Assembly (NCBI GenBank): GCA_947462765.1
Contig: CANHQK010000019.1
Coordinates: 1 to 36,818 of the forward strand
DNA from: Bdellovibrionales bacterium
Lineage (GTDB): Bacteria > Bdellovibrionota > UBA1018 > CAIMNF01
Reading direction: 5' to 3'
DNA length: 36,818 bases
In this document: positions 6,673 through 16,466 of the stretch, in pieces
Layout of the letters: each line of letters begins with the position of its first letter
Numbering within the stretch: the first letter of the stretch is position 1
Notes under the pieces: generated by a model
Told to the model about the DNA's origin: nothing
Databases searched by the model: none
The model's input: only the letters and a program-made list of their open reading frames with translations
Position numbers and translations under genes: made by a program

Positions 6673-6999
6673 ATGAAACGCAATAAGAACGCCGTACACG
6701 GTCTCCTTCTCCTCTCAGGAACCTACTTCTGCCCCGGTAACCCGGACATTTGCGACCAGGAAGTCAGGGTGTACAGCCAAAATGGTAAGATGACGGCTGT
6801 GAAGGTCGAGTATACCGGATACTGCGGGAGCATGGGACCCTACCTTTATCCCTGCTCGGGCAGGACCTGCAAGGATACGAATGCGGAGTTCAAGATCGAG
6901 AACGTTCGAAGCTACACCTGGAAGAATCTAGGCCACCCGTACTCCTGCCGTTTCGAATTAAAGACGAAGGACGCGTCTCAGCTTCTTACCGGCGAATGA
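6673..6999 (+). CDS. Small six-cysteine protein, function unknown
   Basis: This 108-residue product has cysteines at 20, 27, 51, 61, 66 and 92, enough for three disulfides, which points to export. The N-terminus has only a short hydrophobic run (GLLLLSGTYF) that makes a poor signal peptide, so the true start or export route is uncertain. The body (EVRVYSQNGKMTAVKVEYTGYCG) looks like a small beta domain. It starts 2 nt after the vWA lipoprotein gene and is probably co-transcribed with it. Its last 42 bases overlap the 3' end of the adenylate-forming enzyme gene on the other strand. I do not recognise the family. Confidence 0.55.
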   Translation: MKRNKNAVHGLLLLSGTYFCPGNPDICDQEVRVYSQNGKMTAVKVEYTGYCGSMGPYLYPCSGRTCKDTNAEFKIENVRSYTWKNLGHPYSCRFELKTKDASQLLTGE

Positions 7000-8238
7000 G
7001 GGAATCCCCTCATGAAAGCGGATCTCGGGACGTAAAGCTCCGACCCGATCTGCGAGGTTCGAAATCTCCACCTCGATCCGGTTCCTGACCGCCCCCTGCT
7101 CAGTCCCGATCATCACTTTAAGATGGATGTCGAGTTCCCCGTCCCGGGTTTGCGTCACCAGGTACTCTTCGATCGCTTCATCAGCAGTGATGACAGCACG
7201 ACGTATGAAATCGGGAAAAACAGCCACCGGCTCTCCACCCGACACCCGCTTGAACCGGAGGACATCATCCGAGCGCCCTTCAATGCTCTCGAGGGCAGTC
7301 ATCACTGAGCCGCACGCGCATGGTGTTGAACGCAGAGTGAGAATGTCATTGAGCCGATACCGGATCACTGGCTGCGAGGTCCGTGTGAAATCGGTGATGA
7401 TCGGCATGAACTTGGTCCGCGTTTCATCGAGCCATTCCGGATCGATACGGACACAGTCCTCATTCAGGTGAAGGGTACCGTGCTCACAACTGGCGGCTAA
7501 AAATCCCTCAGTGCACTGGTAAATCTGATGCACCTTCATTCCGAAGGCGGCGGTCATCCTCCGCTCATCGAGCGGATCCAAAGTCTCTGCGATTGAAAAA
7601 ATACGTCTGGGAAGAGCCGGGATCCGACCCGCCGCACGGGCTTCGGCCAGACGGATCAGCATTGAAGGAGGCGCGAACAGAAGATCCGGACGCTGAGACT
7701 CAAGACGCTCAAGGTGATCCTCGATCGGAGACAACAAATCATAGAATTCAAAAAGAATTCTCGACCCCGAGGAGGCGGTATAAAGATTCGAGTTCGCACG
7801 CATGAAAAAGGCAACCCGATATTGATCAAGAATGGATCCCGGAAGAATCTTCGCGAGAAGTGTCCCGGCATGCCGGGCCCGTTCGGAGTCCGACACCAGA
7901 AAGAGCCCCCGATTGCCGCTGGTGCCGGAAGAAAGCCCCACCGTCACCCCGTTCAGAGTCGGAGTGAAATCCCGGCTGGCTTCAGCTCGGAAGGCCAGAT
8001 CAAATGCCTGATCCCGATCGACTCCAACCGTGTTCAGATCGGTGAAATGCTCCATCATGATCTTTTTGTCGATCATCCCTCCGCTCCACTCCCGGTAGAA
8101 CTTCGAATGCCTTTTCACCCACCCCAAATGACGGGAGATCCTCCGTTCCTGATACCGCTCGAGCTCCGACCGGCTCTTGAAGCGACGCAAATAACGGGTC
8201 ACCAGATAATGAAAAAAAATCCGAAACTTAAAGAGCAT
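6958..8238 (-). CDS. PaaK/F390-synthetase-like adenylate-forming enzyme
   Basis: This 426-residue protein belongs to the adenylate-forming superfamily near phenylacetate-CoA ligase and coenzyme F390 synthetase (COG1541). Seen directly: the nucleotide-binding loop SSGTSGNRG at 103-111, a YQCTEG motif in the middle, and a C-terminal segment with DVLRFKR and the near-terminal KKLRRV lysine region. Such enzymes activate a carboxylate as an acyl-AMP and pass it to a thiol or other acceptor. The ATG at 8238 is chosen over one at 8262 because AAGGAACGGAG precedes it, and the gene then overlaps the MBL gene by 11 nt. It is the last gene of the minus arm of the lipid-type cluster and probably activates an acyl or aryl acid for that pathway. 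Substrate unknown. Confidence 0.75.
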   Translation of the reverse strand: MLFKFRIFFHYLVTRYLRRFKSRSELERYQERRISRHLGWVKRHSKFYREWSGGMIDKKIMMEHFTDLNTVGVDRDQAFDLAFRAEASRDFTPTLNGVTVGLSSGTSGNRGLFLVSDSERARHAGTLLAKILPGSILDQYRVAFFMRANSNLYTASSGSRILFEFYDLLSPIEDHLERLESQRPDLLFAPPSMLIRLAEARAAGRIPALPRRIFSIAETLDPLDERRMTAAFGMKVHQIYQCTEGFLAASCEHGTLHLNEDCVRIDPEWLDETRTKFMPIITDFTRTSQPVIRYRLNDILTLRSTPCACGSVMTALESIEGRSDDVLRFKRVSGGEPVAVFPDFIRRAVITADEAIEEYLVTQTRDGELDIHLKVMIGTEQGAVRNRIEVEISNLADRVGALRPEIRFHEGIPSFAGKKLRRVLRL

Positions 8239-9076
8239 GACTCCGTTCCTTCTCCATCGCAACCTCGCAATGGCAAGTCAGAATCCTGAGCCTTCCCGCA
8301 TCCCGCTTGGCACAATCAAGGCTGTGAATGCGGGAAAGGGTGGAGCGGTAAGAGGAGGGATCATGGAAAATCAGATCGGTGACTCGCATCGGTGCGATCC
8401 CTTCACGAAAAGAAGGAGTCAGCCAAGCCGCATCCGCAACCAAAAAATAATCCACATCCCGCACCGAAGGTACGAACAGCCCCATCTGGCCGAGTGTGTG
8501 ACCCGGCAGTGGGACCAGAAAGATGCTCCCATCACCCAACAAGTCCGATCCGTACCATCCCTCACCCAACTCCCTGAGGGGTACCGGAAACTCATCCACC
8601 CAGCGGGTCCTGGTCTCGAACGATTCAGGGAGGAGTGCTTTCAAAAATCCGTGTTTCACCTGCCGCACCGACCCTAACCCGCTCAGATAATCATACTCAC
8701 GGCGTGAGGCCACATAGCGGGCCCGGGAAAAATCACCCGCCCCTCCAATGTGATCCGCATGAAAGTGCGAGAGCAAGACTTGTGAGACTTCGGATTCGGC
8801 AATCCCGAGAGCCTTCAATCTCCCGACGGCGCTGGTTTCCGGGCTGACGGTCACGGGGGTGACCCAGGCATAAAGTTTTTCAGGGAATCGACGCGTGACC
8901 TCGTGAAATCGACCCGAGTACCCGGCATCAAAAAGCAAATACCCCTCCCGGGGATGCTCAATCAGCGCTACCGTCGACGGGAAACGGATTTTCCGCCATC
9001 GCCCAGTGACTGGATTGACGATTTTCTCGAACTGTTCGGTGTATCCGGCCTCTAGGAAGGTGATCGAGCGAACCAC
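8228..9076 (-). CDS. MBL-fold metallo-hydrolase
   Basis: This 282-residue protein has the metallo-beta-lactamase signature HFHADHIGG (His104, His106, Asp108, His109), a later metal ligand in PLPGHTLGQMG, a bridging Asp in VADAAW and a C-terminal His in LTCHCE. It resembles AHL-lactonase/glyoxalase II-type hydrolases, which cleave lactones, thioesters or similar ester bonds at a two-metal centre. There is no signal peptide, so it should be cytoplasmic. It begins with GTG, 7 nt after AAAGGA, and its 5' end overlaps the SDR gene by 25 nt. In this cluster it could release or proofread an acyl thioester or open a lactone intermediate. This role is inferred from context only. Confidence 0.85.
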   Translation of the reverse strand: MVRSITFLEAGYTEQFEKIVNPVTGRWRKIRFPSTVALIEHPREGYLLFDAGYSGRFHEVTRRFPEKLYAWVTPVTVSPETSAVGRLKALGIAESEVSQVLLSHFHADHIGGAGDFSRARYVASRREYDYLSGLGSVRQVKHGFLKALLPESFETRTRWVDEFPVPLRELGEGWYGSDLLGDGSIFLVPLPGHTLGQMGLFVPSVRDVDYFLVADAAWLTPSFREGIAPMRVTDLIFHDPSSYRSTLSRIHSLDCAKRDAGRLRILTCHCEVAMEKERSHAL

Positions 9077-10041
9077 GGGATTGTCCTTTCGAGACCCTCT
9101 TGCATGCTGATTCCGGGACGGTACCCGATGAGGGTCTTGGCTTTATCAATAGACAGAGTGCGGGTATACGCCAGTGTGCAGACTCCATACCGGGTCAATA
9201 GAGGCTCACGATCGGGAATGAAATGACGGTGAACCCATTCCAAGGCACCCGCAATTTTCCAGGCACGCTCGACCGGGATCCATTTTCTCTTCACCCGGTA
9301 ACCGAGGCGGCTGAGCAAAGCCTCGAGTGTGACCAGCTGATTCACGGGTTCGCCATTCGTGATATTGAACACCTCTCCAAGTGACTCAGGACCCGAACTC
9401 AGTGCGCAAAAAACAGCAGAGACCACGTTGTCGACGTAAGTGAGATCAATCCGGACCAATTCGTCCATCACCGGAACGAAGCCCTTCTCCGCGATGCGGA
9501 TCAACCGGGGCAGTATCGCTGTATCACGCGGACCGAAGATCCCCTGTGGGCGAAGGATCACGGTGTCCAGGCCGAGTTGAAAATACTCCTGAACCAAGCG
9601 TTCCGCCTTCAATTTCGAGTCTGCGTAATGATTGATCATCTTTTCCGGCAGCGGATCACCCTCAAGAATGAACTCTTTCGAGGCTTTCTCGACATAGACA
9701 CTCGGAGTGGAAATATGAACAAACCTGGATACCCGCTTCTCAAGTGCCACAGAGCACAGCACCTGGGTGGCCAGCACGTTTGAATGGTAGAATTCAGCGG
9801 GTCGTCCCCAAGGACTCGAGAGAGCCCCGCAGTGCACCACGGCGCTTTCTTCAGGCAAGACTTGTTCGAGAAACACTCGATCGGTCAGATCTCCAGCATG
9901 GGTGGAGGCTCCCAACTCGGCAAGGCGGCCGAGGGCCACCGGGTTCCGCCCCAATGCGATCACCCGCCTCCCCTGCTCGAGCAAGAGTTCAGTCAAACGC
10001 CCTCCAAGGAATCCGCTGGCCCCTGTCACCACCACCGTCAT
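9052..10041 (-). CDS. Extended SDR NAD(P)-dependent epimerase/dehydratase or 3-beta-HSD-like reductase
   Basis: This 329-residue protein has the Rossmann motif TGASGFLGG (6-14), a Ser-containing STPSVY (111-116) and catalytic YADSK (Tyr139, Lys143), the hallmarks of extended short-chain dehydrogenases. The C-terminal half carries substrate-domain blocks typical of the 3-beta-hydroxysteroid dehydrogenase/OleD side of the family (ILRPQGIFGPRD, IDLTYVDNVV, VFNITNGEPV). It would reduce a keto group or oxidise an alcohol. The ATG at 10041 gives the usual ATGA overlap with the ATP-grasp stop codon and has GGAACGG upstream. An ATG at 10053 would add four residues. It lies third in the operon after a KAS III, so a beta-ketoacyl product is a reasonable substrate. 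Confidence 0.82.
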   Translation of the reverse strand: MTVVVTGASGFLGGRLTELLLEQGRRVIALGRNPVALGRLAELGASTHAGDLTDRVFLEQVLPEESAVVHCGALSSPWGRPAEFYHSNVLATQVLCSVALEKRVSRFVHISTPSVYVEKASKEFILEGDPLPEKMINHYADSKLKAERLVQEYFQLGLDTVILRPQGIFGPRDTAILPRLIRIAEKGFVPVMDELVRIDLTYVDNVVSAVFCALSSGPESLGEVFNITNGEPVNQLVTLEALLSRLGYRVKRKWIPVERAWKIAGALEWVHRHFIPDREPLLTRYGVCTLAYTRTLSIDKAKTLIGYRPGISMQEGLERTIPWFARSPS

Positions 10042-11201
10042 GGGCCGTTCCATTCTATGTCGCGGGTGGAGGCCTCCAAGGGTGTCACACGACCGCGGAG
10101 ACCGGCACGAATCAGTGCAAAGAACGAAATGAACTGATCGAAAAACGGAATCGGATCGCGGGAATCAAACACCGTCTCGCGCGCCCCTGAGAAAATCGAT
10201 CCCCACAAGGTGAGCCGGTGCCAGGAATCGATCGAAGGAAGTCCGTATACGAGCATGGCCAATCGCAGTTGGGCTGACTCGCCGGACTCGGGGGCGAGAA
10301 TCCTCCCCGATCCTTCTCCTCCCGCCAGCAGATCGATGAATTCCGGATTCTGCGCAAACAAATGCAAGCCGCTCGTAGCCCTCGGGTTGCATTCCAAGGC
10401 ACGCACCGTCCCTGAGTCATCCTCGATGAAGTCGAAAGCGATCTGACCTGTGTATCCGGTCGCCTCGACAAATCGCTTCACCCAGTCCTCGATTGCCGGA
10501 TGGGACACAGCCTCGAAGCAGATCCCGGCCCCTTTTCCGGCCTTGAACTCATGGCTGTAGGTCAAGTGGGCTAGCAAGCGGCCATCTTTGGCCAAGGAAT
10601 ACGAACAATACTCCTTACCGGGGAGGAACTCCTGTACGCACCATGCTGCGCCGGTTGAAATTGAAGGAATGATGTTCCTTGCCTGATCCCGATCAAGAAT
10701 CAAGGTACGGGTGGCAAAACGAGAATACTCGGGTTTCAGAACAACGCGGTCTCCCCCGATTCCGTCGAGAGCCGAACCCAGCTCCTTCGGGCTGGTCGCA
10801 CGGAAGGTGAACGGAACCGGAAGACCGGCTGAGAGTGCACAGGTGTTGAATTCAACCTTGCTGTGAAGTCGGCCCAATTTCGCAGGATCATCCACCCAAA
10901 GAGTGAGCCGATCGGTCGAAGCACCACGCATCGGTGCCAGATGAAACACCTCCTCGCAGGTAGGGACCAGAACCTCCACTCCTTCATCCTCGATGACCTT
11001 ACCGACTGCCTTCCTGAAAGCATCAGGACCGTCGTTCGGAGCAGGCACCGAATAAAACGCAGAAAAAGCATTCGATCGACGGGATAACGCATGAGATAGA
11101 CTCTCGGCCCCGATCACACGGTGACCTGCACGCTTCAAAGCCCTTGCCAGATCGAGCGTCACCGGGGCCCGAGCCCCGGTCAGTAGAAAAGTCTTTCCCA
11201 T
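10038..11201 (-). CDS. ATP-grasp family ligase (CarB-like)
   Basis: This 387-residue protein has the layout of ATP-grasp ligases: an N-terminal pre-ATP-grasp Rossmann-like domain (FLLTGARAPVTLDLARALKRAGH), a central ATP-binding part (RVVLKPEYSRFATRTLI, then WCVQEFLPGKEYCSYSLAKDG) and the metal/phosphate segment ALECNPRATSGLHLF. Such enzymes make an acyl phosphate from a carboxylate and join it to an amine, thiol or hydroxyl. The gene begins 1 nt after the KAS III stop and ends in an ATGA overlap with the SDR, so it is translationally tied to both. It could form an amide or ester linkage on a lipid chain. The substrate cannot be read from the sequence. Confidence 0.8.
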   Translation of the reverse strand: MGKTFLLTGARAPVTLDLARALKRAGHRVIGAESLSHALSRRSNAFSAFYSVPAPNDGPDAFRKAVGKVIEDEGVEVLVPTCEEVFHLAPMRGASTDRLTLWVDDPAKLGRLHSKVEFNTCALSAGLPVPFTFRATSPKELGSALDGIGGDRVVLKPEYSRFATRTLILDRDQARNIIPSISTGAAWCVQEFLPGKEYCSYSLAKDGRLLAHLTYSHEFKAGKGAGICFEAVSHPAIEDWVKRFVEATGYTGQIAFDFIEDDSGTVRALECNPRATSGLHLFAQNPEFIDLLAGGEGSGRILAPESGESAQLRLAMLVYGLPSIDSWHRLTLWGSIFSGARETVFDSRDPIPFFDQFISFFALIRAGLRGRVTPLEASTRDIEWNGP

Positions 11202-11202
11202 C

Positions 11203-12204
11203 TCAATACTCGAAAATCACCATACCGAGAGACATACCGGCAGAAGTCCCCAGAAGGAGGACCTTGTCCCCCCTCCTGATTCGGCCCTGCTCGATAGCAT
11301 GATGGAGTGCCAGCGGAATCGATGCAGCAATCATGTTTCCATGTTTGGACAGGATGTCCATGTATTTCTCCTGGGCAATACCGAGTTTGCGTCGAACGAG
11401 CTCCATCCCGTTTCCGCTGGCCTGGTGTGGAACCACAAGCGCGATGTCGTTGAGACTCAACCCGCACTCTCGCATGGCCTCATCGAAAAACTCCGGTATT
11501 GTTTCAAGAACGAGGCGGAACACTTTCCGTCCATCCATGCAAAACAGGAATTTCTCGGAATCGGGACGCTCGGTTTTCGGGTGGACACGGGTCCCCCCTC
11601 CTTCGATTCGACAGTACCCCGCACCCTCACTGAAAGTCTTCATGTGGGCGTGAATGACTCCGGACCCTTCTCCGGGAGCGGGTCGGGTCACGATGGCGGC
11701 GGCCGCCCCGTCTCCGAATAAAGCATAGGCCTCATGCTGAGCCGGATTCAGTCCGACGGAGGCGATCTCAGTAGAGACGATCGCCAGAGTTCTGAACCGT
11801 CCGGTAGCCAATAAGGATGAGGCGAGATCGAAAGCCGTCACAAAACTGAGGCAAGTCGAATTGACATCGAAGCAAGGAATGGGAATCTCAGGTCGGTTCA
11901 GGGCTTTTTGGATCAGAGCCGCGGTTCCGGGGATGGCCTGTTCGGACGAACCGCTGGCACAGATGATGGCGTCGAGCTCCTCGTACCGGATACCGGATTT
12001 TTCGAGAGCTGCCATCAAAGCAAATGCGCCCATCTGAGACGCGGTCTCATCGGTCACATACCGACGCTCGGCAATGCCCGTCATCTGCTCGGATTTACCA
12101 CGAGCGAGACCCAGGCGGTCATCGACTTCCGCCCCGGTCACAATCCGCTTGGGGAGGTAAGATCCGGTAGAGAGGATTTTCAAGGGTCGTTTGTCGATTT
12201 TCAT
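11203..12204 (-). CDS. 3-oxoacyl-ACP synthase III family (KAS III) condensing enzyme
   Basis: This 333-residue protein has an intact KAS III triad: Cys118 (DVNSTCLSF), His260 (VPHQASG) and Asn290 (KHGNMIAASIP). It also has the family's YALFGDGAAAAI and terminal LLLGTSAGMSLGM blocks. It should perform a decarboxylative or Claisen condensation of an acyl-CoA with an ACP- or CoA-bound partner. The genomic context is a specialised cluster and not a fab operon, so it is probably not the housekeeping FabH, although no other FabH occurs in the window. The ATG at 12204 is preferred to a TTG at 12240, which overlaps the promoter. There is no Shine-Dalgarno sequence and a strong -10 ends 7 nt before the ATG, suggesting a leaderless mRNA. 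First gene of the minus arm. Confidence 0.88.
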   Translation of the reverse strand: MKIDKRPLKILSTGSYLPKRIVTGAEVDDRLGLARGKSEQMTGIAERRYVTDETASQMGAFALMAALEKSGIRYEELDAIICASGSSEQAIPGTAALIQKALNRPEIPIPCFDVNSTCLSFVTAFDLASSLLATGRFRTLAIVSTEIASVGLNPAQHEAYALFGDGAAAAIVTRPAPGEGSGVIHAHMKTFSEGAGYCRIEGGGTRVHPKTERPDSEKFLFCMDGRKVFRLVLETIPEFFDEAMRECGLSLNDIALVVPHQASGNGMELVRRKLGIAQEKYMDILSKHGNMIAASIPLALHHAIEQGRIRRGDKVLLLGTSAGMSLGMVIFEY

Positions 12205-12211
12205 GAGGCGG

Positions 12212-12240
12212 AGTATACCTGACTTTTTTAGTTTTTTCAA
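12212..12240 (-). promoter_or_regulatory. Strong sigma-70-type promoter of the KAS III operon
   Basis: On the minus strand a -35 TTGAAA (12240-12235, 5 of 6 matches) and a -10 TATACT (12217-12212, 5 of 6) are exactly 17 nt apart. Transcription should start at or within one or two bases of the ATG at 12204. The A-rich spacer could add promoter strength. The promoter lies in the divergent region between the two arms of the cluster. Confidence 0.75.
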
Positions 12241-12291
12241 TAGACTTTATATAAAAAAGAGGGTAGTTTCGCCCTGCATGGAGCGTTACGG

Positions 12292-12966
12292 ATGGCACAA
12301 CTGAAAAAGTGGTTCCGCTTTTTTTCCGCCTGCTTTTTTCTAATCACCGGAGGCGTGATCCTGATTTTCAATCGCAAGAACTACAAACCCATTTACCGCG
12401 GGTTCCGTTACTTCATGGAACACGAAAGCTACCAGATCACCCTGCGCCGCCTGCGGGAGGACCCGGATACGCGAGCCCTTGTCGAATCCCGGTACCGCCA
12501 GGGCCTCCCGGTCGATTGGGGCAAACTGCGCACTCTTCCCGAAAACACACTTGGCTTTCAGTTCGCCCGATTCATGAACCACCCGGAGGTGACTCCACTG
12601 GATCGGCTGCCCGAGGCCAGAACAGAGATTTCACCCGAGATCGATTACCTGAGACAACGGATCCGGTTGATTCATGACATCCATCATGTGGTTTGTGGTT
12701 TTCCTGCGGATGAACTCGGAGAAATGGGGATTTCGGCTTTCTACGTGGCCCAGATCAACAGCCCGCTGAATTCCATGCTCTTGGCTTTCGGTCTCATCAA
12801 ATGCACCATCAAGATGCCGGCCCGCCTACCCGAGCTGATGCAAGAAATCGTGAAGGGCTGGAGCATGGGGCTCAGGGCCAAGAATCTTTTCGGCATCAAG
12901 TGGGAGGAACTCTGGGAGATGCCAGTGGAGGACATCCGCAAGCTCGTCGGAGTGGAAGTCTCGTGA
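12292..12966 (+). CDS. COQ4-family protein
   Basis: This 224-residue protein carries the COQ4 metal motif HDxxH-x11-E exactly (His128, Asp129, His132, Glu144, in HDIHHVVCGFPADELGE). COQ4 proteins act in ubiquinone biosynthesis, on the C1 decarboxylation/hydroxylation step and in binding isoprenoid or lipid. An N-terminal hydrophobic segment at about 8-26 is unusual for the family and suggests membrane attachment. GGAG lies 8 nt before the ATG. A TATATA -10-like hexamer lies at 12248-12253, with a weak -35. It is the first gene of the plus arm, joined by an overlapping TGA/GTG to a desaturase and not to any ubi gene. A role in modifying a lipid or quinone-like product of the cluster is therefore likely but unproven. 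Confidence 0.82.
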   Translation: MAQLKKWFRFFSACFFLITGGVILIFNRKNYKPIYRGFRYFMEHESYQITLRRLREDPDTRALVESRYRQGLPVDWGKLRTLPENTLGFQFARFMNHPEVTPLDRLPEARTEISPEIDYLRQRIRLIHDIHHVVCGFPADELGEMGISAFYVAQINSPLNSMLLAFGLIKCTIKMPARLPELMQEIVKGWSMGLRAKNLFGIKWEELWEMPVEDIRKLVGVEVS

Positions 12967-13988
12967 ACCCGCGGTTTTCGATCGAGCTGAAAGGAGAGGT
13001 CCGGGCGCTTCTCAATTCGGATCCGAACGGACGGTACGCTGATCCGGGGGTCTGGGGCAAAGCAGCTGTCCTGATCGCTCTGACTGTTCTAGGTTATGGG
13101 AGTTTGCTTTTCCTCGCTCATACTTTTTCCGACCGCGTGGTTCTGGTCCTCGCCCTTGCCTTCGTCACCCTCTTTCTCGGACTGAATGTCATGCACGAGG
13201 CGGCCCACGGAAATCTTTCTCCGCACCCCGGGATCAATCGGATTCTGGCTTATACCTTCGATTTGTTCGGGATCAGTTCCGACCTTTATGTGATCAAACA
13301 CACCCATTTCCATCACCACTACACCAACCTCCATGAATTCGACGGAGACATCAACGAAGCCCCGCTGATTCGGATGTCGCTTGAGCAAACGCGCTGGGGG
13401 ATCCACCGTTACCAGGCCCTGTACACCCCTCTGCTTTATTCGCTGATCACCTTGACCTGGCCGTTCTTCGACCTCATTCGATTGGTGCGGCCACGCGTCG
13501 GCGGTAAGCCCTTCACTCCTCCACGTTTCGGGGTGAAACTCCGAATCCTACTGTTCAAGGTTCTGCACTATGTGCTCGCTTTGGCACTCCCCGCTCATCT
13601 CATCGGATGGAAAGAAACCCTGGTGTTATTCACCTTGTTTCACGCCGTGCTCGGTACGATCCTCGCCCTGATTTTTCAAGTCGCTCATGTTCACGAATCG
13701 GGACTGGTTCAGCCCGGGACCGGAAGGGAAGACTGGCACATCCATCAGATGCTGACGAGCGCTGACTTCAGCACCGGGAATCCTTGGATCAATCACAGTT
13801 TCGGCGGGCTCAATTTCCAGACCATCCACCATCTCTTTCCGAATGTTTCCCATCGTCACTTCCCGGCGATCCGTCAGATCGTCATCCGTCTGGCAAAACA
13901 GCACGGAATCCCCTACACCCATTTTGCGAGTTTCGGTGAAGCCATTCGCGCCCATTTCCGGCTGTTATCGCGACTGGGGCGAGCCTGA
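12963..13988 (+). CDS. Membrane fatty acid desaturase
   Basis: This 341-residue membrane protein has the three histidine boxes of acyl-lipid/acyl-CoA desaturases: HEAAH (78-82), HTHFHHHYTN (113-122) and QTIHH (286-290). Hydrophobic spans flank them (about 34-54, 58-76, 153-170, 197-215 and 218-241). The di-iron enzyme introduces a double bond, or hydroxylates an acyl chain, using O2 and an electron donor. No cytochrome b5 domain is fused. The start is a GTG overlapping the COQ4 stop (GTGA), with GGAG/GGAAG upstream. An in-frame extension back to 12801 inside the COQ4 gene is rejected. Its place in the cluster implies that the product has an unsaturated or oxidised acyl chain. Confidence 0.9.
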   Translation: MNPRFSIELKGEVRALLNSDPNGRYADPGVWGKAAVLIALTVLGYGSLLFLAHTFSDRVVLVLALAFVTLFLGLNVMHEAAHGNLSPHPGINRILAYTFDLFGISSDLYVIKHTHFHHHYTNLHEFDGDINEAPLIRMSLEQTRWGIHRYQALYTPLLYSLITLTWPFFDLIRLVRPRVGGKPFTPPRFGVKLRILLFKVLHYVLALALPAHLIGWKETLVLFTLFHAVLGTILALIFQVAHVHESGLVQPGTGREDWHIHQMLTSADFSTGNPWINHSFGGLNFQTIHHLFPNVSHRHFPAIRQIVIRLAKQHGIPYTHFASFGEAIRAHFRLLSRLGRA

Positions 13989-13991
13989 TCC

Positions 13992-15062
13992 ATGATCCAT
14001 CTCCACTGCCATGATCAACATGCCGGCCCCCGTTCGAACTCCCTTCTCGATCTCATCCGGGAAACCCGGGTTCCAGGTCCCATTTCATACCATTACGAAA
14101 GACCGGGAGGATACGAAGCCTTCGCCCGTGCCCAGGGATCACGCTTTAGGGTGGTCGAAGCTGAGGAGGACGGGATCACTCTCGGATTCACCCAAGTGAC
14201 CTTCGACCGTGTGTTGTGGGAAGAATCCGTACTCGAGATCGCCTACAGCGGAGACACACGGGTCGCGAGCTCCGCACGGGGCCTCCGGATTTCGGACCGT
14301 CTGATCTTTGAGGCTTGCGGCCTTCCTGTGCCGGTTTTCGGCGCCGTCATGTCCGGCAACGCCACTGTACTCCGTTCGAAACTGGGCCACTGGAGAAAGT
14401 CCGGCATCGATTTCAAGCCCATCGCGGACTTAGAGGCCTGTTTTTACCGTCCTTCGAAAGCTGTAGACCATGGCACCTGGTCCTGCCGTCAGGCCCGACC
14501 GGACGACTTGCCCTCGATGTTTTCGCTCTGGACCCAATACGCCCGCTCCCGCAATTTGACCCGGTGCTATGCCGATCCTGAGTCATTTGGCGCAGACTTT
14601 CCTCCCGGGACCTCACTCGAAACCACCTGGCTCATCCATGAGGGCCGGGATTTGATTGCGATGATGAGCCTCTGGGACCAAGATGCGCTCCGGATCATCC
14701 GGGTCGACTCAAGGTCCCCCGCAGTTGACTTTGCGCTCGCTTGGCTACCGGAATCCTGGATCCGGATCCCTGCCGCAGGAGAAGAACTCAGGATTCTGTA
14801 TTCCTACCGGCATGCATGGGCAACGGATCATCCTTCAGCCGCCCGCGCCCTACGCCTCCTGATTGCAGAGGGACGCCACCAGGCACTCAAGCAGGCCCGT
14901 CATTTCTTCTGTTTCGGGATCGATGCACGGGATCCGATGGCTGGCCCAGCACGTGCGGGTACGCTCTTCAGGAATCGGGCAAGAATCATCTGCGACCCGC
15001 GGGGAGTCCCGGGCGTCATTCCCGGAACCCGCCCGCTTCATCTGGAAATAGGTGTGGGCTGA
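13992..15062 (+). CDS. GNAT-family acyltransferase-like protein
   Basis: This 356-residue protein looks like a two-part GNAT. The first part (about 30-145) has the YHYERPGGYEAFARAQG opening seen in large GNAT proteins, a central strand pair and the CoA-binding-like loop SSARGLRISDRLI at about 92-104. The second half (about 155-350) has RQARPDDLPSMFSLW, another GNAT-type opening. The assignment is by pattern and individual catalytic residues cannot be named. It begins 3 nt after the desaturase stop, so it is part of the plus arm, and it could transfer an acyl group onto an amine or hydroxyl of the product. It ends 6 nt before the convergent CoA-transferase gene. Confidence 0.55.
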   Translation: MIHLHCHDQHAGPRSNSLLDLIRETRVPGPISYHYERPGGYEAFARAQGSRFRVVEAEEDGITLGFTQVTFDRVLWEESVLEIAYSGDTRVASSARGLRISDRLIFEACGLPVPVFGAVMSGNATVLRSKLGHWRKSGIDFKPIADLEACFYRPSKAVDHGTWSCRQARPDDLPSMFSLWTQYARSRNLTRCYADPESFGADFPPGTSLETTWLIHEGRDLIAMMSLWDQDALRIIRVDSRSPAVDFALAWLPESWIRIPAAGEELRILYSYRHAWATDHPSAARALRLLIAEGRHQALKQARHFFCFGIDARDPMAGPARAGTLFRNRARIICDPRGVPGVIPGTRPLHLEIGVG

Positions 15063-15068
15063 GGGAGC

Positions 15069-15731
15069 TCAGGCCGGAAGTGTCATCTCGGGAATCTCAC
15101 CCTCGATGATCAGGGGGGCTTCCGTAGAGCGGATAATCTCATCAACCGAAACACCGGGAGCCCGCTCGACCAAGCGCAATCCTTGCGGAGTCACATCGAT
15201 CACGGCGAGCTCGGACACAATCCGATTCACACAGCGCTTGCCAGTCAAAGGGAGAGTGCACTTCCGGAGAATCTTGCTCTTCCCGTCCTTCGATACGTGC
15301 TGCATCGCCACGACAACCCGCTTGGCCCCGGCCACCAGGTCCATCGCACCCCCCATGCCCTTCACAAGCTTGCCCGGAATCATCCAATTAGCGAGGTCAC
15401 CTTGCTCATCCACCTCCATAGCTCCGAGCACCGTCAGGTCGATTTTGCCGGCTCGGATCATAGCAAAGGAATCCGCACTCGAAAAAAACGCAGCTCCCGG
15501 AATCACCGTTACGGTCTCCTTACCGGCATTGATGAGATCGGCGTCCATCTCCTGCTCTGTCGGATAGGGTCCGAGGCCGAGAATCCCATTCTCACTCTGC
15601 AAAACAACTTCGATACCCCGGGGAATGTAGTTCGCAACCAGAGTCGGGATTCCGATCCCGAGATTGACATAGTAGCCATCGCGCAACTCTTGCGAAATGC
15701 GCATGGCAATCTGCTCACGCGATAGACTCAT
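15069..15731 (-). CDS. scoB: 3-oxoacid CoA-transferase subunit B
   Basis: This 220-residue protein matches the beta subunit of succinyl-CoA:3-ketoacid CoA-transferase (also AtoA/PcaJ-like). Catalytic Glu lies in the SENGILG motif. The [13 protein letters not shown] opening and the [17 protein letters not shown] block are characteristic. Together with subunit A it moves CoA from succinyl-CoA or acetyl-CoA to acetoacetate or a related ketoacid through a glutamyl-CoA thioester. Its ATG overlaps the TGA of the A subunit (ATGA). The sequence cannot settle whether acetoacetate or 3-oxoadipate is the substrate, but the thiolase at the head of the operon favours acetoacetate. Confidence 0.92.
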
Positions 15732-16444
15732 GACTGACCTCCTGTACGAAGCACTTTACGCTCAATCCGCTTCTGATAATCCTTACCCTGGAAAATCCGG
15801 TGGACATAAACACCCGGCAAGTGGATTTCATCGGGAGCGAGCTCACCCACCGGGACAAGCTGCTCGACCTCGGCAATCGTGATTTTTCCAGCCATCGCAC
15901 AAAGCGGGTTGAAATTACGGGACGTCATACGGAAAACGAGATTACCCATGGCATCCCCCTTCCAGGCCTTCACGATCCCGAAATCTCCGATGATCCCGCG
16001 CTCGAGCACAAACTTACGTCCATTGAACTCCCGCTCTTCCTTGCCCTCGGCGATCAAAGTCCCGACTCCAGTGGGGGTATAAAACGCCGGAATGCCTGAC
16101 CCTCCGGCACGAAGACGCTCGGCCAGGGTCCCCTGAGGCGCGAACTCGAGCTCGAGTTCACCAGAAAGAACCAGTTGCTCGAAGAGTTTGTTCTCTCCCA
16201 CATAACTCGAGACCATCTTACGGACCTGTCTCTTCTCGAGCATGAGCCCGATCCCGAACCCGTCGACACCGGCATTGTTCGAAACGCATGTGAGATCCTT
16301 CACACCCTTTCTGACCAGGGCAGCGATAGAATTCTCGGGAATCCCGCACAATCCGAAGCCCCCCATGGTGAGAATCGCGCCATCGAACACATCACGAACC
16401 GCCTCATCGGCACCGGAAACCACTTTGTTCATACCTTTGGACAT
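15728..16444 (-). CDS. scoA: 3-oxoacid CoA-transferase subunit A
   Basis: This 238-residue alpha subunit has the glycine-rich signature [13 protein letters not shown] near the N-terminus, the [14 protein letters not shown] block and [25 protein letters not shown], all standard for ScoA/AtoD/PcaI. It pairs with the next gene to form the active CoA-transferase. The ATG at 16444 is preferred to the GTG at 16450, because AAGGAG lies 5 nt before the ATG but only 1 nt before the GTG. It starts 22 nt after the solute-binding protein gene and belongs to the thiolase operon. Confidence 0.92.
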
Positions 16445-16466
16445 GCTCACTCCTTAGCTTGATAAA

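Follow-up and report, generated by a model that had tools for sequence, protein, structure and literature searches.

The sequence considered here, referred to below as the window, is a 36,818-nucleotide stretch of DNA from a Bdellovibrionales bacterium (assembly GCA_947462765.1, contig C19, CANHQK010000019.1); its source genome comprises 2.33 Mb in 97 contigs and is 91% complete. Eight open reading frames (ORFs) exactly span positions 6958-15062 of the window and are arranged as two divergent arms. The five genes of the minus arm encode a beta-ketoacyl-acyl carrier protein (ACP) synthase III (KAS III), an ATP-grasp ligase, an extended short-chain dehydrogenase/reductase (SDR), a metallo-beta-lactamase (MBL)-fold hydrolase and an adenylate-forming enzyme related to F390 synthetase (F390-like enzyme), and the three genes of the plus arm encode a COQ4-family protein, a membrane fatty-acid desaturase and a protein designated ORF8 (Table 1). 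An initial annotation of the window had described eight tightly packed divergent genes at this position, and their coordinates and strands proved correct. In this work, we describe the cluster and, in particular, its core, by which we mean the KAS III, SDR, MBL and F390-like genes, often joined by the ATP-grasp gene as a fifth member.

Within each arm the genes are closely spaced. On the minus arm, the F390-like and MBL genes overlap by 11 nucleotides (nt), the MBL and SDR genes by 25 nt and the SDR and ATP-grasp genes by 16 nt, with 1 nt between the ATP-grasp and KAS III genes; on the plus arm, the COQ4 and desaturase genes overlap by 4 nt, and a gap of 3 nt precedes ORF8. The arms are separated by 87 nt, within which a sigma-70-like promoter on the minus strand stops 7 nt ahead of the KAS III ATG, so that a leaderless mRNA is predicted. 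A similar promoter box is visible by eye 7-10 nt upstream of the ATG in five of the six aligned loci of the genus, the exception being locus L037.

Pfam and NCBIfam models back seven of the eight labels given in the initial annotation, the exception being the GNAT label of ORF8, which matched no family. The Pfam scores in bits, with the cut-off in parentheses, are Lactamase_B 51.2 (22.7), Epimerase 127.9 (20.9), Coq4 95.4 (22.9) and FA_desaturase 108 (29.7). The F390-like protein matches TIGR02304 at 470.7 bits, over the cut-off of 251.9, and the KAS III matches NF005541/PRK07204 at 409.7 bits, over the cut-off of 402. The ATP-grasp protein matches NF005315/PRK06849 at 352.5 bits, under the cut-off of 406, and its matches to Pfam ATP-grasp models are also below their cut-offs.

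Table 1. Genes and other features of the cluster in window coordinates
Feature	Position	Strand	Family, motifs and residues
F390-synthetase-related adenylate-forming enzyme	6958..8238	-	TIGR02304; SGTSG 104-108, E244, D298, K419 conserved
MBL-fold hydrolase, nearest AHL-lactonase group	8228..9076	-	Lactamase_B; H104 H106 D108 H109 H193 D215 H269 intact
Extended SDR	9052..10053	-	OleD (2-alkyl-3-oxoalkanoate reductase) best NCBIfam family, below cut-off; S115, Y143, K147
ATP-grasp ligase, PRK06849-like, related to cyanobacterial MysC	10038..11201	-	
KAS III ketosynthase (PRK07204), nearest CorB/MxnB	11203..12204	-	C118, H260, N290; I91 at OleA Glu117 position
Divergent intergenic region	12205..12291	.	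Sigma-70-like promoter TTGAAA-17-TATACT, 12240-12212, minus
COQ4-family protein, apparent N-terminal membrane segment (by eye)	12292..12966	+	Coq4; HDxxHx11E at residue 128
Membrane fatty-acid desaturase	12963..13988	+	FA_desaturase; His boxes
Protein without assigned family (ORF8; earlier label GNAT unconfirmed)	13992..15062	+	

Distribution and conservation of the core

To collect related loci, plasmid records were searched by tblastn with the F390-like protein at an E-value of 1e-30 and with the KAS III at 1e-40. The F390-like query matched 26 records, all of them within the 28 records that carry a KAS III match, and the two genes lie at most 10 kb apart in 25 of the 26; in the remaining one, the Pseudomonas megaplasmid pMPPla107, the distance is 17.6 kb. 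At a loose limit of 1e-5 the F390-like query matches 104 records, 70 of which cover less than 80% of the query, and this limit was not used for the counts.

Among the loci that were fetched, the order KAS III-SDR-MBL-F390 is found in Paenibacillus and Pontibacillus (Bacillota) and in Escherichia coli, and also in Ketogulonicigenium, Paracoccus (two), Pseudomonas FeN3W, Burkholderia stagnalis, Paraburkholderia, Roseateles, Shinella and Rhizobium (two); in some of these loci the ATP-grasp gene is placed after the KAS III gene. The order is permuted to SDR-MBL-F390-KAS III in Fusobacterium, and in pMPPla107 and pBASL58 the four genes are dispersed, with other genes in between. The core set is present in Bdellovibrionota, Pseudomonadota, Bacillota and Fusobacteriota. 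The initial annotation had proposed that five or more of the eight genes occurring together in distant genomes would support a unit, and the set of KAS III, ATP-grasp, SDR, MBL and F390-like genes is indeed found together in Paenibacillus, Pontibacillus, Paraburkholderia, Shinella, Rhizobium and Roseateles. An arrangement unique to the window genome is ruled out by these plasmid and distant-genome loci. A search of a phage collection gave 22 records, with at most 31% identity among the best 10 of the 22.

Note that some records stored as plasmids in PLSDB are 2-3 Mb long and may be chromosomes; those of Fusobacterium vincentii (2.1 Mb; L029, 1-19248) and B. stagnalis (3.2 Mb; L033) are probably chromosomes or chromids. 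In the Pseudomonas megaplasmids pMPPla107 (L030, L066) and pBASL58 (L031), the core extends over 10-20 kb, with mostly hypothetical genes in between.

The E. coli version (L067, 4001-10882) is a stretch of seven genes in the order KAS III-SDR-MBL-F390-PAP2-fatty-acid hydroxylase-desaturase. A search of 5,426 complete E. coli genomes gave matches to it in 672, with a coverage of at least 80% in 671 of these, and its sites are chromosomal in 671 cases and on plasmids in 2. Two records were examined for neighboring genes: narI lies on one side in both, and two tRNA-Tyr genes followed by purU lie on the other side, where they are annotated in one of the two. The four-gene core of this operon is homologous to that of the window and has the same order. 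However, the stretch contains no match to the ATP-grasp, COQ4 or ORF8 proteins and carries other tailoring genes. No description of it turned up among the papers listed by the literature searches.

Within the phylum of the window, an F390 match of any strength is found in 18 of 97 genomes, and one over the cut-off in nine. In all nine, KAS III, ATP-grasp, SDR and MBL genes are found alongside, the set being split over two contigs in one genome (G003). The nine further relatives whose F390 match is below the cut-off fall outside this neighborhood count.

For a closer comparison, 18 sets of core proteins from the four phyla were aligned, seven of them from the nine phylum genomes and 11 from the 26 plasmid records; the remainder was dropped for redundancy or missing annotation. 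The Cys-His-Asn residues of KAS III, the Ser-Tyr-Lys of SDR, the seven metal ligands of MBL, and the Glu and C-terminal Lys of the F390-like enzyme are invariant in all 18 sets, and the Lys, Glu and Asn of the ATP-grasp protein in all 13 members aligned; the roles of these residues are those usual in the families. The HDxxHx11E motif of the COQ4-family protein and the histidine boxes of the desaturase, patterns characteristic of those families, are also present, and the earlier statement that the active sites are intact is borne out.

Pairwise distances are correlated among the four core enzymes, with r of 0.82-0.91 in the 18 sets; when five close sets are dropped, r is 0.45-0.70 in the remaining 13, and between 0 and 7 of 5,000 permutations gave values as high. 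These correlations, which are computed without regard to shared ancestry and shared transfer, fit inheritance and transfer of the core as a block. The unit on the minus arm is almost certainly real.

The ketosynthase and its partner enzymes

In both a single-sequence and a profile search, the solved structures nearest to the KAS III are MxnB (229.5 bits) and CorB (227 bits), followed by FabH; the first of these is structure 4v2p, printed as 'ketosynthase', which we take to be MxnB. Chains of 338-358 amino acids (aa) named '3-oxoacyl-[ACP] synthase III', presumably OleA, score only about 64-71 bits. We also constructed a tree of 26 proteins, namely the 18 cluster KAS IIIs, CorB and MxnB, a KAS III from Priestia, and FabH proteins including two FabH-like paralogues, with OleA outside the sample. 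The cluster KAS IIIs, CorB/MxnB and the Priestia protein are split from FabH and from the paralogues of the window genome with support of 100/100. The cluster KAS IIIs form one group (88/76), which appears in 84% of the bootstrap trees, and CorB and MxnB pair with the Priestia protein (92/83) outside that group. The genome encodes two other FabH-like proteins, by which a role of the cluster KAS III as the sole housekeeping FabH is ruled out. The Priestia gene, on a P. megaterium plasmid (L065, 8992-12620), is followed by genes for an acyl carrier protein and an MMPL transporter, and this locus is possibly another uncharacterized pathway.

A Glu residue serves as the catalytic base in OleA (E117) and PpyS (E105), and MxnB and CorB have Val94 at this place, according to PMC4578411; the OleA Glu117 is usually followed by Pro (PMC7064751 and PMC4578411). 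In the window KAS III this position is Ile91, which like its CorB equivalent lies 27 residues ahead of the catalytic Cys; across the 18 aligned proteins it is Ile in nine and Leu in nine. The triad of C118, H260 and N290 together with the non-acidic I91 agrees with the CorB/MxnB type, as do the corresponding residues in all 18 proteins. With no equivalent of Glu117 in any of the 18, and MxnB and CorB as the closest solved relatives, membership in OleA is ruled out. The absence of this Glu makes an OleA-type joining of two unactivated chains unlikely. As judged from these residues, CorB-style joining of a beta-ketoacyl chain (PMC4901931) and malonyl-dependent extension would remain for this enzyme. 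The likeness to CorB and MxnB comprises the nearest structures, the common grouping apart from FabH, the Cys-His-Asn triad and the hydrophobic residue (V94 in theirs, I91 in the window). It does not extend to the surroundings: those enzymes act on polyketide synthase (PKS) chains to give alpha-pyrones, whereas the eight window genes contain no PKS and do contain the SDR, MBL and F390-like genes.

The main rival to the joining of two chains is that the KAS III extends one particular acyl-coenzyme A (CoA) with malonyl-ACP in a decarboxylative Claisen condensation, which is the chemistry of FabH, that the SDR reduces the product, and that the F390-like and ATP-grasp enzymes convert it into a 3-hydroxyacyl amino acid, a second chain having no part in this route. 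The Ile or Leu at the OleA Glu position and the Cys-His-Asn triad suit decarboxylative chemistry and CorB chemistry equally, and FabH is the next nearest group behind CorB and MxnB. However, the tree places the cluster KAS IIIs with ketosynthases that join chains and apart from FabH, and the best family of the SDR reduces alpha-branched two-chain products. We consider this one-chain route a fair possibility, though less likely than not; that two chains are joined rather than one extended falls, in our view, slightly short of an even call.

Among NCBIfam families, the window SDR scores highest with OleD (NF042422), but its 183.9 bits fall a long way short of the curated cut-off of 580. All 18 aligned SDRs match the OleD model at an E-value of 1e-20 or better, as they also match the HpnA model and a second 2-alkyl-3-oxoalkanoate reductase model; the ranking of OleD as best family applies to the window SDR among them. 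The initial annotation had drawn a parallel between the minus arm and OleABCD, and this parallel stands for the four-step logic (condense, reduce, adenylate, hydrolyze) and for the SDR. It does not stand for the ketosynthase, which has Ile or Leu in place of Glu and MxnB/CorB as its nearest solved relatives. OleB is an alpha/beta hydrolase in the place where the window has an MBL enzyme, and the adenylating family of OleC differs from the F390 family.

One may still suppose that the cluster is a substituted Ole pathway ending in a beta-lactone or an olefin, with KAS III, SDR, F390-like and MBL enzymes in the places of OleA, OleD, OleC and OleB. The four enzyme types are the same, OleD is the best SDR family, the MBL is nearest to lactonases, and Ole sets lacking oleB produce beta-lactones (PMC7064751). 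On the other side are the OleA Glu, missing in 18 of 18 aligned proteins, and the difference of the F390 family from the adenylating family of OleC, and the genes for head groups and tailoring found close to several cores (see below) fit poorly with a hydrocarbon. We regard such a pathway as quite improbable.

The assignment of the MBL protein to the lactonase type is based on a family profile, which scores 94 bits against N-acyl homoserine lactone (AHL) lactonases and about 27 against the thioesterase PqsE. The AHL-lactonase metal ligands (HxHxDH, then a later His, Asp and His) are kept in all 18 aligned proteins. The window protein scores 79.2 bits with the curated lactonase model AttM and does not reach its cut-off of 390.

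The ATP-grasp family occurs in 10 of 58 relatives, namely the nine genomes with an F390 match over the cut-off and one further genome (G053); the PRK06849 cut-off is reached in none of the ten. The window protein has no match to a solved structure at an E-value of 0.1. It matches 14 plasmid records, among them a gene in a mycosporine-type cluster of Nostoc that is taken as mysC by its position. The window protein is 31% identical to this MysC over about 350 aa (171 bits), and a profile of the 13 aligned members scores 231 bits against MysC and 2.8 against the neighboring mysD-type ligase (MysD). MysC attaches glycine to 4-deoxygadusol (PMC10510106), which makes it natural to guess that the window enzyme links an acid or enol with an amino acid or amine. 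No MysA or MysB homologue is found among the eight window genes, and the substrate presumably differs from the cyclohexenone used by MysC. The Nostoc protein also begins with 69 residues to which nothing in the window protein corresponds.

The plus arm and its relation to the core

The initial annotation had treated the eight genes as one unit, and in this respect it has to be revised: the conserved unit consists of the core four, often five, genes, and the plus arm in the window order was found only in the window genus among the loci examined. Within the genus, four genomes, namely G000, G001, G004 and G009, have the order COQ4-desaturase-ORF8. The COQ4 gene is present in six of the six genus genomes with an F390 match over the cut-off and in none of the six without, and ORF8 in five of six and none of six, respectively. 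In G005 the COQ4 gene and ORF8 are adjacent on another contig and two desaturase genes lie beside the KAS III gene. In G003 the ORF8 family is missing, and a methyltransferase-domain protein (L037, 5430-6131) is encoded between COQ4 and KAS III; such a protein would fit a methylated head group. Five more of the 97 genomes have a COQ4 gene, and one of them (G029) has the core on another contig. The 26 F390 plasmid records contain no COQ4 match (14 plasmid records do match COQ4). The plus arm accompanies the core in the window genus and is not a core member elsewhere.

Such a distribution raises the alternative of two operons, in which biosynthesis is the task of the minus arm alone, and the COQ4, desaturase and ORF8 genes serve another function, being adjacent by chance or through shared regulation. 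All eight genes together were found in no distant locus examined, and the arrangements in G003 and G005 and the lack of COQ4 in the F390 plasmid records are in line with this alternative. However, the presence of COQ4 and ORF8 within the genus largely follows that of the F390-like gene, and the core also has desaturase neighbors in G005, G016, E. coli, B. stagnalis and, at a distance of about 3 kb, G029. We regard a separate function of the plus arm as improbable.

The COQ4-family protein could also point to an aromatic or quinone-like lipid, in which the product of the ketosynthase would cyclize and the COQ4-like protein would decarboxylate and hydroxylate the ring. COQ4 is reported to carry out an oxidative decarboxylation in human cells (PMC11495197), and the window genome has no MqnA/D, no MenD and no UbiG match over the cut-off, which would leave the COQ4-like protein without an obvious quinone job; these searches span three families in a genome that is 91% complete. 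Against this idea, COQ4 is missing from the F390 plasmid records, and no cyclase or aromatase is found among the eight genes. We regard it as very improbable.

ORF8 has no Pfam or NCBIfam family at an E-value of 0.01, no PHROGs family at an E-value of 1, no match in the plasmid records, and no solved structure at an E-value of 0.1 or below (best 0.12), so that its GNAT label is left unconfirmed. Among 58 genomes its strong matches are confined to the window genus, with two weak matches outside. That ORF8 is the acyltransferase-like protein found beside other cores (alignment A1, see below) was considered and ruled out, the profile comparison giving a probability of 0.4%; the A1 protein has no match in the window genome and is absent from the genus.

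Next to the plus arm, at 15069-16450 of the window, are two CoA-transferase-type subunits, so labeled from their sequences, which converge with the last plus-arm gene. This pair remains a neighbor of the cluster in loci L034-L036 and probably belongs to unrelated metabolism.

A candidate lipid pathway

The genes found beside the core in other lineages bear on its product. The ATP-grasp gene and the gene for the A1 acyltransferase-like protein (359-384 aa) accompany the core in Paenibacillus, Paraburkholderia, Shinella, Rhizobium, Roseateles and genome G028, and in G029 they are two ORFs away. Two of the nine known A1 members are over the cut-off of Pfam Acetyltransf_6 and three others that were tested match nothing; the profile of this conserved GNAT protein has an unrelated protein as its best match among solved structures (E-value 0.084). 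In a Deinococcus plasmid, the ATP-grasp and A1 genes occur with no core nearby. The ninth A1 member, in Rhizobium NIBRBAC000502774, lies beside a DUF3419 protein, a family that we take to be that of BtaA-type aminocarboxypropyl transferases. A Rieske protein is encoded near the core in G028, Rhizobium, Shinella and Roseateles, a GT21 glycosyltransferase in Fusobacterium, and PAP2, fatty-acid hydroxylase and fatty-acid desaturase proteins in E. coli and B. stagnalis. Sulfotransferases near the core in Ketogulonicigenium and the two Paracoccus are homologous to one another at 49-64%; the Ketogulonicigenium locus is made up of four genes plus the sulfotransferase gene. These enzyme types are ones that add groups to, or modify, hydroxylated lipids.

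The initial annotation had held that the enzymes make sense together and had guessed at a lipid with a head group, and the enzyme types and neighbors agree: the product is probably of a lipid type and likely to carry such a group. The variety of head-group genes suggests a common backbone with interchangeable heads. As a more specific and rather speculative proposal, the four-enzyme core, found in at least four phyla and about one eighth of complete E. coli genomes, may produce a hydroxylated backbone, perhaps a two-chain 2-alkyl-3-hydroxy structure, which each lineage would complete with a polar head of its own (a sulfate, sugar, amino acid, homoserine-type or phosphatase-processed group).

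For the window lineage, we infer the reactions, substrates, order of steps and product as follows. The CorB/MxnB-like KAS III would load an acyl thioester on Cys118 and join it to a second activated chain, with a nucleophile of the beta-ketoacyl or malonyl type. The lactonase-type MBL would act on a lactone or thioester to set the carboxylate free. The OleD-like SDR would then turn the 3-oxo group into a 3-hydroxy acid, and the F390-like enzyme would adenylate this acid for hand-on. In this lineage, the MysC-like ATP-grasp enzyme would then couple an amino acid or amine, and the desaturase, COQ4-like protein and ORF8 of the plus arm would tailor the chain. That the conserved unit makes a polar-headed lipid-type product by this particular order of work is put forward tentatively, with doubt slightly exceeding confidence.

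Several points weigh against this proposal. No member of the unit has a known product or activity, and the label 'lipid' is founded on enzyme types and neighbors. Two of the 28 KAS III plasmid records (Priestia and Paracoccus TOH) have no F390 match, and four of the 14 ATP-grasp records (two Deinococcus, Nostoc HK-01 and FeN3W) have none within 10 kb. The ATP-grasp records include no E. coli, Ketogulonicigenium, Paracoccus or Fusobacterium, which places this gene outside the core. The plasmid records are not independent, since they include five near-identical Ketogulonicigenium, two E. coli and two Shinella oryzae records, and the correlation of distances disregards common descent and joint transfer. 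Genome G053 (77% complete) has no F390 match, and its contig of 3.4 kb (L090, 1-3356) reads SDR-MBL-ATP-grasp-GNAT; the F390-like gene may be dispensable, lost or located elsewhere in that genome. As to the individual enzymes, the support in the tree for a single group of cluster KAS IIIs is moderate, the missing Glu disfavors OleA-type joining, and the SDR, besides its low OleD score, belongs to a set that matches HpnA throughout.

None of the papers listed by searches of the open-access literature describes the unit, and no match to a characterized pathway was found, in agreement with the initial annotation; a description may be in print elsewhere. The family names and accessions of the F390-like, KAS III and ATP-grasp proteins led to no paper in that literature. 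For F390 synthetase itself, one gene appears in a phenol transcriptome (PMC5501837), and several genes are linked to the oxygen response (PMC2702500). What was already known is the families of seven of the eight proteins; what appears to be new is their combination, which is akin to ketosynthase-initiated pathways of the lipid or pyrone type.

A compact gene set found in part of E. coli, in Fusobacterium and Bacillota, in bacteria of soil and plants and in Bdellovibrio relatives would represent an overlooked metabolic function, one that annotation has missed because each gene bears a bland name. Since four or five genes can be transferred to a laboratory host, the product is directly testable. 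If the route is Ole-like, it would be Ole chemistry built from other enzyme families, and should the product prove to be a lipid whose heads are interchangeable, the membrane or surfactant chemistry known from common bacteria would be extended.

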